Shown here: positions 1,855 to 17,447 of the stretch, piece after piece
Layout of the letters: each line of letters starts with the position of its first letter
Position numbering within the stretch: the first letter of the stretch is position 1
Assembly (NCBI GenBank): GCA_021298285.1
Contig: JAJTFN010000055.1
Coordinates: 1 to 35,046, forward strand
Direction: 5' to 3'
Length of the DNA stretch: 35,046 nt
From: Verrucomicrobium sp.
Lineage (GTDB): Bacteria; Verrucomicrobiota; Verrucomicrobiia; Limisphaerales; UBA9464
Program-made: the position numbers and the translations under genes
Notes under the pieces: model-generated
The model's input: only the letters and a program-made list of their open reading frames with translations
Told to the model about the DNA's origin: nothing
Databases searched by the model: none

Positions 1855-2377
1855 CACCGACGGTTCACCCCGCATTCACAGATGGCATCATGAGGTGTCA
1901 TTCCGGTTCTGGCGTATTGGCGTGAGGTTGAATCTTCGACACCCCATCCGCACGCGAAATCCGCCAGTTCGGAAGACAACCGACGCCTCCCAGGGCCCAC
2001 GTTTTGAAGGTCAAAATCCACCCCCGATTTGTAACGGATAATCGTCGAAACCTCTCCGGGTCCCGAAGGTGCCATGGTTGTTTTCGCGGAACACCGCTCC
2101 AGGATTGCAACCTGGTTTCCCCGCCGAGTACGGAGCGTCATCACCGTCCCGGCCGAGGATTGAATCCGAGGAATAAACCGTTAGCCGGCCATCGAGCCGA
2201 CGCGGACACCGACGACCACCCCACGGTCTCGGAGCCCACACCCAGAAACCCGCAGCGGAGCGGGATCGGTCCGCGCCGAGCGTAGGAACGTCGACACCCT
2301 GCTCCCCCTCGCGCGTCAGCGCGAACGTCCCGCTGGCCCCAACGTTCCCCGCGAGCGCGGACTGGTCCCGCGGAGCC
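1855..2377. other. gene-free spacer between hsdR and the 2378-2725 gene
   Basis: About 520 bases without a convincing gene. Short open frames exist on both strands, but none has recognisable protein features. The right part (about 2251-2376) is copy 1 of the palindromic repeat described separately. The left part (1880-2250) is less GC-rich than most of the window and shows no recognisable coding or RNA feature. The hsdR promoter should lie here, but I cannot place it. Confidence 0.6.
2251..2376. repeat. structured palindromic repeat, copy 1
   Basis: Three nested inverted arms are visible. The outer arm is GCGGGATCGGTCCGCGC (2260-2276) against GCGCGGACTGGTCCCGC (2355-2371), 17 positions with two mismatches that would both be G-U pairs in RNA. 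The middle arm is GGAACGT against ACGTTCC. The apical hairpin is TCGCGC-GTCA-GCGCGA. The core between the middle arms is nearly identical to the copies at 15959-16206. The element ends one base before the stop codon (2378-2380) of the upstream minus-strand gene, so it could act as a 3' hairpin or terminator. It resembles REP/BIME or MITE-like elements in design, but I do not recognise it as a named family. Confidence 0.85.
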
Positions 2378-2725
2378 CTACCGCCAACCCACCTCGCTGA
2401 TGTCGAGGTGCCAGTCGCTGCCGTCGCTGACACGGACGGCCGTGCCCTCCTGGCGGTAGGTGATCTTCGACAGGTCCACCGAGGCCGGGATGATGTTCAC
2501 GATCACCTCGCCGCTCACCACCGACACCACCCGGGTGCGCTGCTCCGGACGCCGGATGAACTGATAGGTCGTGGGATCCACCGCGTAGACGTGACCCGTC
2601 ATCCGCAGCACGCCCTCGCGGTAGTCGTTCACCACGCCGACGAAGTGCCGGTGCGGCTCGTGGTCGAAGTGACGGCGATGGATCACGTGGATCTTCTCAC
2701 CGGGAGCGAGGATCGAGGCGAACAT
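2378..2725 (-). CDS. conserved-looking small protein of unknown function
   Basis: A 115-residue protein with no signal peptide or membrane segment. I cannot name a family. The sequence has good coding character, mixed hydrophobic and charged strands (HVIHRRHFDHEPHRHFVGVV, RTRVVSVVSGEVIVNIIPAS) and looks like an all-beta cytoplasmic domain. It is histidine-rich near the N-terminus (residues about 13-25). ATG at 2725 was chosen; a GTG at 2731 is in frame. It lies 55 bases downstream of the phosphodiesterase gene on the same strand and may be co-transcribed with it. Its stop codon directly abuts the palindromic repeat. Function unknown. Confidence 0.75.
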   Translation of the reverse strand: MFASILAPGEKIHVIHRRHFDHEPHRHFVGVVNDYREGVLRMTGHVYAVDPTTYQFIRRPEQRTRVVSVVSGEVIVNIIPASVDLSKITYRQEGTAVRVSDGSDWHLDISEVGWR

Positions 2726-2780
2726 GGCCACGGACCCTGTCCACGCGACCGTCGGTTGTCCAGTACGGGCAACCTCTCTC

Positions 2781-15064: not shown

Positions 15065-15991
15065 ATGGAACCGGTGCTGCCCGAGACGCTGGCCGAGCGG
15101 TTGTTCCCCGAGGGTGACTTCGCCTTCGGCTTCGGCATGCAACGGCCCCGTCAGGAATGGTTCCGGTGGAACCCCGCCGATCCCGAGGCCCTCGAGGAAC
15201 GGCGGCATTGGCTGTCGGCCGAACCGCATCGACACCTGGCCTCGACCGACGAAGCCGGCCCCGTGCTGCAGGAGGCCATGGCGCTCTTCCCTGGGGCGCC
15301 GATTGCGACGGAGGCCGATCCGCAACCGGGATCCGCGCCCAGCGATCCAACCGGCAAAAGGAACGCCGGGGACTTGAGGAGCCTGTCCCTCCGTTGGGAA
15401 CCCGACCTGCTGCTTCTGCGGCGGGATGCCGCAGGCCCATTCCGTCTGGTCGCCGGAGCCGTCTGCTTTCCGTCGGCCTGGGACCTCCGCGAAAAGGTCG
15501 GCAAGACCGTCGATGCCATCCATGCCGGTGTCCCCACCCTCAACGCCACACTGGCGACCCGAATCAACGCCTTCCTCGATCGCCTTCCGGCCGGCCAAAC
15601 CTTCGAGCGCGACAACTGGGGCCTGGCCGCCCACGGCCAACGCAACGCCCATCCCGATCGCGCCCTGCCCCGGCTCACCGCCGACGCCACCCTCGAGACC
15701 ACCTGGCTGCGGCTCGAACACCAGGCCTTCCGCGCCCTCCCCCAGAGCGGCGGCCTGCTCTTCGCCATCCACCTCACCGTGCACCCGCTGGTTCGCGTCC
15801 TGCAGGCCCCCGGTGCCCGCGATCGGCTCGCCCGACAACTCCGCTCCATGCCCGACCCCATCGCCGCCTACAAAGGCATCCTCCCCGCCCGCGATCGCCT
15901 GGTCCGCCTCCTCGAAACCGACTCACCGTTGCCGTGCACGCAACCGTCCATATCCCCCCGGCGGAGCGGGATCGGTCCGGAGTGCGTGTAG
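15065..15991 (+). CDS. DUF3445 protein, haem-dependent oxidative N-demethylase-like
   Basis: A 308-residue protein of the DUF3445 family, whose studied members are haem-dependent oxidative N-demethylases. Family motifs visible are the ICFPS-type strand (GAVCFPSAWDLREKVGKTVD), IHAGVPTLN, RDNWGL, and the LRLEHQAFRALPQSGGLLF segment. No signal peptide is visible, so it is presumably cytoplasmic. The frame enters the palindromic repeat at about 15937, so the last 17-18 residues, including the stop codon, are encoded by repeat DNA; the authentic C-terminus may have been replaced. ATG 15065 is used because conserved sequence (LPETLAERLFPEGDFAFGFGM) follows directly; the frame extends to 14930 without similarity. 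The substrate is unknown. Confidence 0.82.
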   Translation: MEPVLPETLAERLFPEGDFAFGFGMQRPRQEWFRWNPADPEALEERRHWLSAEPHRHLASTDEAGPVLQEAMALFPGAPIATEADPQPGSAPSDPTGKRNAGDLRSLSLRWEPDLLLLRRDAAGPFRLVAGAVCFPSAWDLREKVGKTVDAIHAGVPTLNATLATRINAFLDRLPAGQTFERDNWGLAAHGQRNAHPDRALPRLTADATLETTWLRLEHQAFRALPQSGGLLFAIHLTVHPLVRVLQAPGARDRLARQLRSMPDPIAAYKGILPARDRLVRLLETDSPLPCTQPSISPRRSGIGPECV

Positions 15992-16063
15992 GAACGTCGA
16001 CATCCTGATCCCCCTCGCGCGCTCAGCGCGAACGTCCCGCTGGCCCCAACGTTCCCCACGCAC
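15959..16063. repeat. structured palindromic repeat, copy 2 (tandem with copy 3)
   Basis: It has the left outer arm GCGGGATCGGTCC (15966-15978), middle arms GTGCGTG..GGAACGT against ACGTTCC..CACGCAC (ending 16063), and the apical hairpin TCGCGC-GCTCA-GCGCGA. It lacks its own right outer arm and runs into copy 3. A flanking CACGCAACCnTCCATA stretch (from 15937 and from 16061) is duplicated as well, so the tandem unit is about 121-124 bases. It carries the stop codon of the upstream DUF3445 gene. Confidence 0.85.
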
Positions 16064-16080
16064 GCAACCATCCATACCCC

Positions 16081-16206
16081 CAGCGGAGCGGGATCGGTCC
16101 GGAGTGCGTGTAGGAACGTCGACATCCTGATCCCCCTCGCGCGCCAGCGCGAACGTCCCGCTGGCCCCAACGTTCCCCACGCACGCAGGACCGATCCCGC
16201 GGAGCG
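16081..16206. repeat. structured palindromic repeat, copy 3
   Basis: This is the most complete copy. The outer arms GCGGGATCGGTCC (16088-16100) and GGACCGATCCCGC (16188-16200) pair perfectly over 13 bases. The middle arms GTGCGTG/CACGCAC and GGAACGT/ACGTTCC pair, and the apical hairpin is TCGCGC-GCCA-GCGCGA. It ends 38 bases before the thiH start codon, so any thiH promoter must overlap it or lie within it unless thiH is transcribed from upstream. Confidence 0.87.
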
Positions 16207-16244
16207 CCTTGCCTGCAAAACCTCCCCGGCTATGGTCCGCCCAC

Positions 16245-17447
16245 ATGAGTTTCGTCGAGGCCTTCCGGGCCTTGCCCCTGGAGGGCTTGATGAGTCAGGC
16301 CCAGTCATCGAACACCGAGCACATCGACGCCGTGCTCCGGCGCGGGCCCGCGTCCCTCGCCGATTTCGCCACCCTTCTTTCACCGGCCGCCTCCACCCGG
16401 CTCGAGGAACTGTGCCGCCGCTCCCAGGCCCTCACCCGCCAGCGCTTCGGCAAGACCATCCGCCTCTTCGCCCCGCTGTACCTCAGCAACGAGTGCATCA
16501 ACAACTGCGCCTACTGCGGCTTCTCGCGCGACAACCCCATCCTCCGGGTCACCCTGGCCCGGAAGGACGTCGAGCGGGAGGCCCGCGCCCTCGCCGAACA
16601 GGGCTTCCGCAACCTCCTGCTGGTGGCCGGTGAACATCCCAAGTTCGTCTCCAACGGCTACATGGCCGACTGCGTCCGCGACCTTCACGCCTTCATCCCG
16701 TCCCTGTCGCTCGAAGTCGGCCCCATGGAGACGCCCGACTACCGACCCCTGGTCCAGGCCGGGGCCGAAGGCCTGGTGGTGTACCAGGAGACCTACGACC
16801 GCGAGGTGTATGGCCGGATGCACACCCTGGGCCCCAAACGCGACTTCGACTGGCGCCTCGCCACCCCCGAACGGGCCTACGAGGCCGGGTTCCGGCGCCT
16901 GGGCATCGGCGCCCTGTACGGCCTGGCCGACTGGCGGCGCGAGGCGATTTCCGTGGCCGCGCACGCGGCCTGGCTGCTCAAGCACTGCTGGAAGGCCCAG
17001 GTCACCGTGTCCCTGCCGCGACTGCGTCCCTGTGCCGGCGAGTTCCAGCCCCTGACCGGGTTCCAGGACCGGGACCTCGTGCAGGTGATCGCCGCGCTGC
17101 GGCTGTTCCTGCCCGACGTCGGCCTCGTGCTCTCGACCCGCGAGCCGGCTCCCCTGCGCGACGGACTGCTGCCCCTGGGCATCACCCACGCCAGCGCTGG
17201 CAGCCACACCGAACCCGGCGGCTACACCGGCGCCGGCCAGGAGACGATCCACCACACCGTGCGTGGCAGGATCGAGGCCCTCGCACCCGACGCCCCCGAA
17301 CGATCGGTCACCGCCGGCCGGACCACCAACGCCACGGGCCAGTTCGACATCGCCGACGACCGATCGCCTGCGGAGGTGGCAGGCGTGATCCGCAGGCTCG
17401 GCTACGAGCCGGTGTGGAAGGACTGGGACGCCGCCCTGTCGGAATAG
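16245..17447 (+). CDS. thiH: 2-iminoacetate synthase ThiH (radical SAM)
   Basis: ThiH cleaves tyrosine with S-adenosylmethionine to give dehydroglycine and p-cresol, supplying the thiazole part of thiamine in anaerobic-type synthesis. In the 400-residue protein the radical SAM cluster motif is C84-INN-C88-AY-C91, inside PLYLSNECINNCAYCGFS. Further family blocks are LLVAGEHP, VVYQETYDREVYG, IGIGALYGLADWR, VSLPRLRPCAGEFQP, LVLSTREPAPLRDG and SAGSHTEPGGY. HydG is similar but carries an extra C-terminal cluster motif, absent here. ATG 16245 was chosen; the in-frame start at 16209 adds non-family residues. No thiG, thiS or thiF is in the window. I see no ribosome-binding site, and the promoter region is occupied by the repeat. 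Confidence 0.93.
   Translation: MSFVEAFRALPLEGLMSQAQSSNTEHIDAVLRRGPASLADFATLLSPAASTRLEELCRRSQALTRQRFGKTIRLFAPLYLSNECINNCAYCGFSRDNPILRVTLARKDVEREARALAEQGFRNLLLVAGEHPKFVSNGYMADCVRDLHAFIPSLSLEVGPMETPDYRPLVQAGAEGLVVYQETYDREVYGRMHTLGPKRDFDWRLATPERAYEAGFRRLGIGALYGLADWRREAISVAAHAAWLLKHCWKAQVTVSLPRLRPCAGEFQPLTGFQDRDLVQVIAALRLFLPDVGLVLSTREPAPLRDGLLPLGITHASAGSHTEPGGYTGAGQETIHHTVRGRIEALAPDAPERSVTAGRTTNATGQFDIADDRSPAEVAGVIRRLGYEPVWKDWDAALSE

Follow-up and report, generated by a model that had tools for sequence, protein, structure and literature searches.

Nested hairpin repeats between the genes of one genus of freshwater Verrucomicrobiota

MIRU-type repeats are tandem intergenic sequences whose unit number varies at fixed intergenic loci. 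ERIC sequences in Yersinia are co-transcribed, and their effects on mRNA depend on their orientation (PMC2229807). GTAG-REPs have a short unit of 20-40 bp with a stem of 6-9 bp, and in most families more than 90% of the members carry GTAG at one end; such GTAG repeats were reported in the verrucomicrobium O. terrae (PMC3733652). The TIR repeats of TIRYT-type tyrosine transposases are partly self-complementary and clustered, and occur in genomes with such transposases (PMC3733652). Exact excision is known for REPINs (PMC3116915). We found no described family with the sequence of the element reported here, and the Verrucomicrobiota have few known repeats of this sort.

Copies in the window and their fold

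The window is the whole stretch of DNA analysed here, 35,046 nucleotides from Verrucomicrobium sp. Three copies of the element are present where a sequence-only reading had placed them (Table 1), and each is a nested palindrome. The concentric outer arms, middle arms and apical hairpin of that reading were all located in the sequence, with the outer arms intact in copies 1 and 3 and the right outer arm gone from copy 2. The near-invariant core was also confirmed: the 15-mer GTAGGAACGTCGACA has exactly three sites in the window, each with 0 mismatches; shuffled sequence gave a mean of 0.74 matches even when 3 mismatches were permitted. The description of the copies as lying at well separated loci holds for copy 1, but copies 2 and 3 form one tandem array and are 99% identical across 106 bp. 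The linker GCACGCAACCATCCATACCCCC stands before copy 3 and a near twin of it precedes copy 2, which gives a repeating unit of ~122 bp and an array that begins in the remnant of an earlier unit.

The middle arms GTGCGTG/CACGCAC are found in copies 2 and 3, and GGAACGT/ACGTTCC in all three. The hairpin is bracketed by a 7-bp direct repeat, GCGGAGC; of 36 aligned copies, 34 have an exact 3' repeat. Copy 1 ends 2 bp from the stop codon of a 117-aa gene on the minus strand, and copy 3 ends about 39 bp before the start of a radical-SAM/BATS gene. We note that the last residues of the HODM_asu-like gene (..PCTQPSISPRRSGIGPECV) are encoded by the array and linker; in the orthologues of G011 and G015, the stop codon lies ahead of the array remnant. 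Positions 1-1815 of the window hold a restriction-type helicase gene (ResIII/SWI2_SNF2, HSDR_N) that is interrupted by the contig start.

Table 1 Features of the three element copies and the adjoining genes (window coordinates)
Feature	Position	Strand	Remark
Copy 1, complete	2251..2376	+	Covariance-model match 2253-2378, E 5.5e-16
Copy 1, left 7-bp direct repeat GCGGAGC	2255..2261	+	
Copy 1, left outer arm GCGGGATCGGTCCGCGC	2260..2276	+	
Copy 1, right outer arm GCGCGGACTGGTCCCGC	2355..2371	+	
Copy 1, right 7-bp direct repeat GCGGAGC	2370..2376	+	
117-aa gene	2378..2731	-	No Pfam match; array adjoins its stop codon in relatives too
HODM_asu-like gene	15065..15991	+	Stop codon TAG at 15989-15991, inside copy 2
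Copy 2, without right outer arm, array unit 1	15959..16063	+	Covariance-model E 5.4e-10
Linker, copies 2-3	16064..16080	+	From sequence
Copy 3, complete, array unit 2	16081..16206	+	Covariance-model match 16081-16207, E 3.0e-19
Copy 3, left direct repeat GCGGAGC	16083..16089	+	
Copy 3, left outer arm GCGGGATCGGTCC	16088..16100	+	
Copy 3, left middle arms, GTGCGTG then GGAACGT	16104..16119	+	
Copy 3, apical hairpin TCGCGC..GCGCGA	16137..16152	+	Helix 3, 97% of cells paired
Copy 3, right middle arms, ACGTTCC then CACGCAC	16170..16184	+	
Copy 3, right outer arm GGACCGATCCCGC	16188..16200	+	
Copy 3, right direct repeat GCGGAGC	16199..16205	+	
Radical-SAM/BATS (ThiH-like) gene, 3' of array	16245..17447	+	Array at this site in several species

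Against dinucleotide shuffles, the RNA folding z was -3.7 for copy 1 and -5.1 for copy 3, and the DNA folding z (plus strand) was -2.5 and -6.1, respectively. The truncated copy 2 folded no better than its dinucleotide shuffles (RNA z -1.0). A conserved structure had been proposed, and compensatory base changes in the nested hairpin speak for one. The covariance model was built from 36 copies and is 127 positions long. The conserved unit is ~126 bp and consists of a nested stem with 24 counted pairs and the apical hairpin. Across 30 pairs in 36 distinct copies, standard pairs make up 94% of the cells and nine pairs have changed on both sides; none of 500 shuffles matched the observed pairing, although this control is weakened by the relatedness of the copies. 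When the partners were slid by 1-3 columns, pairing fell to 25-47%. Two sub-families differ in the middle arm, which reads GGAACGT/ACGTTCC in one and GGAAGC/GCTTCC in the other. The slid control and the two sub-families agree with the shuffle control, and together they argue that the structure is conserved.

Distribution and history of the family

A search for further copies, the absence of which would have spoken against a repeat family, found dozens to more than 100 per genome in relatives. BLAST gave only three copies in the window's own genome (G000) and many more among 59 relatives, nearly all of the same genus. The count of three was rejected, as the covariance model gives seven matches in this genome at E<=0.01, including C97 and C148. 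Carriers are 13 of the 19 genus genomes, with seven copies in our genome and 17 to at least 134 (in G007) in the twelve others; these copy numbers are lower bounds, as many copies lie at contig ends. The repeats may account for contig break points in many of these metagenome-assembled genomes (MAGs). The covariance-model search found 0 copies in the six other, more distant genus members. The ThiH-like protein is 89-94% identical to that of G000 in carriers vs 75-82% in the six non-carriers, and on the basis of these identities we take the carriers to form an inner clade, with the non-carriers branching off more deeply.

Outside the genus, a single copy was found among 286 sampled genomes of the class, in another genus of the family. 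The plasmid search returned no element, and the viral contigs contained no element and only one exact 18-mer. Reyranella and a Bacilli MAG also contain exact matches to the core; these were set aside as chance, as the profile search finds no element there. The named records with the core belong to Verrucomicrobiota MAGs, and several of these evidently come from lakes such as Lac Pavin. The repeats are a newly recognised family that sits in one genus of freshwater Verrucomicrobiota. We note that the carrier MAGs at L082, L087, L090, L091 and others (CAMCYJ and CAMATE records) were deposited as Akkermansia muciniphila.

The arrangement of the elements was analysed in 340 kb of regions and at other loci, with genes called by a home-made codon-usage finder. 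This sample contains 116 elements in 66 clusters, of which 33 are multi-unit and half are single copies, and merging orthologues leaves 31 independent loci. None of the 66 clusters has elements inside predicted genes. Adjacent units are head-to-tail in 50 of 50 pairs, separated mostly by 13-22 bp (less than 23 bp in 30 of the 50). An integron attC-like site was ruled out, as no gene cassettes lie between the units. At L086, L107, L109 and L082, the element and a second palindromic repeat (..GTATGCGGCGTTCCTTCAGAACGC..GGTTTCACCCCGGGCTGGTATGCGGTGCCCCGTTGGGGCA..) together form composite tandem units of ~430 bp.

Both window loci can be followed across species. An array stands before the radical-SAM/BATS gene at the same site in G001, G005, G007, G010, G014, G016 and G017, with 1-5 units, and 3' remnants remain there in G002, G011 and G015. 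The 117-aa gene was found in ten carriers, and in every one of them 1-4 units lie next to it, mostly a few bases from the stop codon; in non-carriers, no units lie beside it. Each window locus has its own linker (CCAACAAAAAGTACGCAG and CACCAAATACGTCAA), which shows that the multiplication of units was local. One unit has been lost in G010 and G014, and a single GCGGAGC is left there between linker and flank; the deletion thus ran precisely from one of the direct repeats beside the hairpin to the other. The arrays at both window loci are old and mostly inherited. In G000, one site that is filled in G016 and G011 is empty except for a 3' remnant.

Other loci differ in the presence and orientation of the element. 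The L091 locus is empty in G000, G015 and G016, filled in plus orientation in G005 and G014, and filled in the opposite orientation in G007. The L111 and L116 loci have no element in G015. These differences indicate that dispersal also occurs, although the element may have been lost from some of the empty sites, which would then not be pre-insertion sites, and part of the presence and absence could come from incomplete MAGs. Of the 62 copies at shared loci, 28 have their closest relative at a different locus; window copy 1, for example, is nearest (94%) to a G016 copy at a different locus. For some copies, this could reflect gene conversion instead of transposition.

How the units may spread and persist

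We consider it probable that these are lineage-specific, non-autonomous intergenic hairpin repeats that spread in a MITE/REPIN-like manner and were then amplified and deleted in place. The sequence-only reading had suggested a REP/BIME- or MITE-like non-autonomous element; this is still the best class, and the dispersal fits a mobile origin, but the element does not qualify as a classical GTAG-REP or BIME. It would have reached new intergenic sites as a hairpin moved by some enzyme; no mobilising enzyme for it was found in this analysis. In place, slippage or recombination would duplicate or delete units between their directly repeated ends, which would comprise the GCGGAGC on both sides of the hairpin and the ~18-bp linker, and the hairpin should favour this step. 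Effects on neighbour genes, for instance where an element forms a hairpin in the mRNA or supplies the stop codon, would be secondary.

That the repeats are a REP/REPIN family moved by resident RAYT (Y1) transposases appears doubtful. The search for RAYT genes called for earlier did find RAYT-like (Y1) genes, in 18 of the 19 genus genomes, and their number correlates with that of the elements (Spearman 0.62, p=0.004 over all genomes; 0.49, p=0.09 within carriers; neither corrected for phylogeny). The element lies just upstream of a RAYT gene in G001, G005 and G010 and, truncated, in G002; its outer arm GGGATCGGTCC is similar to the RAYT-flank sequence GGGGTCGGTCC. In Pseudomonas, REPINs are known both to stand in tandem and to be excised (PMC3116915). 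However, the four elements linked to RAYT genes appear to represent a single orthologous locus, and G008 has 10 Y1 matches and no element. The more specific proposal of a classical REP/BIME fails, as GTAG stands at the expected position in only 14 of 102 copies, the arrays are not alternating, and the RAYT flanks carry a repeat of their own, GTGTAAATAnGnGGGACCGACCCC, at 9 of 30 RAYT loci (on both sides in L057 and L058). This repeat also occurs away from RAYT genes, 18 times in the 340 kb of element regions, and makes up a TIR-type family of its own in this genus. We note that GTGTAAATAnGnGGGACCGACCCC is found at the RAYT genes of L056-L058, L060, L063, L072 and L074-L076, and that its 18 solitary sites are in L246-L285. 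At L063, L075, L076 and, truncated, L060, the element lies between two copies of a RAYT flank repeat, and the RAYT gene that follows directly appears to be orthologous in these four genomes.

That selection keeps the repeats in gene leaders as a cis-acting structured RNA or DNA control element is an unlikely reading. It would suit the positions at the two window loci, which are common to several species, and the tandem G.A/A.G of the middle stem, which 31-33 of 36 copies retain on the plus strand, while three have Watson-Crick pairs in its place. Also in its favour, the 3'-side gene runs in the direction of the element at 20 of 28 independent loci (p=0.036), although this bias looked stronger (44:13, 44 of 57) before orthologous loci were merged (20:8); the 5'-side gene is co-directional at 15 of 29 merged loci. 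Against such selection, wobble changes are even between strands (21 GT vs 18 AC), unlike those of a selected RNA, and thus give no sign of selection on one RNA strand; with no bias between strands, choosing the strand by wobble counts was dropped. The neighbour genes are unrelated and largely housekeeping, of assorted functions (SecA, SRP54, S15, RtcB and DAHP synthase), window copy 1 is antisense beside a stop codon, the element has been lost at several loci in sister species, and it matches no RNA family in Rfam.

It is similarly improbable that the element is a miniature of a DDE-type insertion sequence with common terminal inverted repeats. Its size of ~126 bp and terminal inverted arms suit a MITE, but the sampled loci contain no split element ends around a gene-length insert. 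The flanking GCGGAGC is constant in nearly every copy and is therefore part of the element and not a target duplication. At the empty sites, no target-site duplication is readable, because the intergenic flanks diverge too fast between these species.

We regard as still less probable a new type of element, a long hairpin with flanking direct repeats, spread by neither known RAYT nor DDE transposition and built into head-to-tail leader arrays whose unit number would tune expression of the next gene. An immobile, MIRU-like minisatellite expanding in place would explain the strict head-to-tail order and the variable unit number at fixed loci but is the least credible reading, as half of the clusters are single copies, and dispersal is needed to explain the 31 or more independent loci of the sample and the copy numbers above 100 in some genomes.

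Copy numbers run from none in some members of the genus, through a few in this genome, to more than 100 in certain species, which makes the genus a natural series for the rise, array formation and decay of a bacterial hairpin repeat. The genus is also useful for the long-standing question of what moves ERIC-type repeats.

Comparison with described repeat families

On the best reading, what is new is the sequence of the family, and its type, ERIC/REPIN-like non-autonomous hairpin repeats, is already known. Like ERIC (IRU, RU-1) of enterobacteria, the element is palindromic, intergenic and interspersed, and the ERIC description of a 127-bp imperfect palindrome between genes agrees with the length of its covariance model and its absence from genes in all 66 clusters. 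However, it has no sequence match to ERIC, its ends are not TA, and head-to-tail arrays with linkers are frequent. Both ERIC primer sites are absent from the window at 3 mismatches.

With REPIN, REP and BIME repeats, the element shares the multi-copy hairpin and tandem clusters in flank-unit-flank order. It differs in having no conserved GTAG tag and no recognised REP doublet in its arms, and it is not the RAYT-flanking repeat. Its arrays are in the same orientation only, with 50 of 50 neighbours the same way round, unlike the inverted or alternating order of REPINs and BIMEs, and its ~126-bp unit, with 24 counted pairs and an apical hairpin, does not have the size of a GTAG-REP. The TIR repeats resemble it in self-complementarity and clustering; some Y1 genes here have a different TIR-like repeat. 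MIRU-type units differ in that the units of the element are long hairpins, also scattered as single copies. By sequence and by the defining marks tested, the element belongs to none of ERIC, REPIN, GTAG-REP and TIR repeats. It comes closest to ERIC in size, palindromic form and intergenic spread, and is REPIN-like in its tandem units and exact excision.
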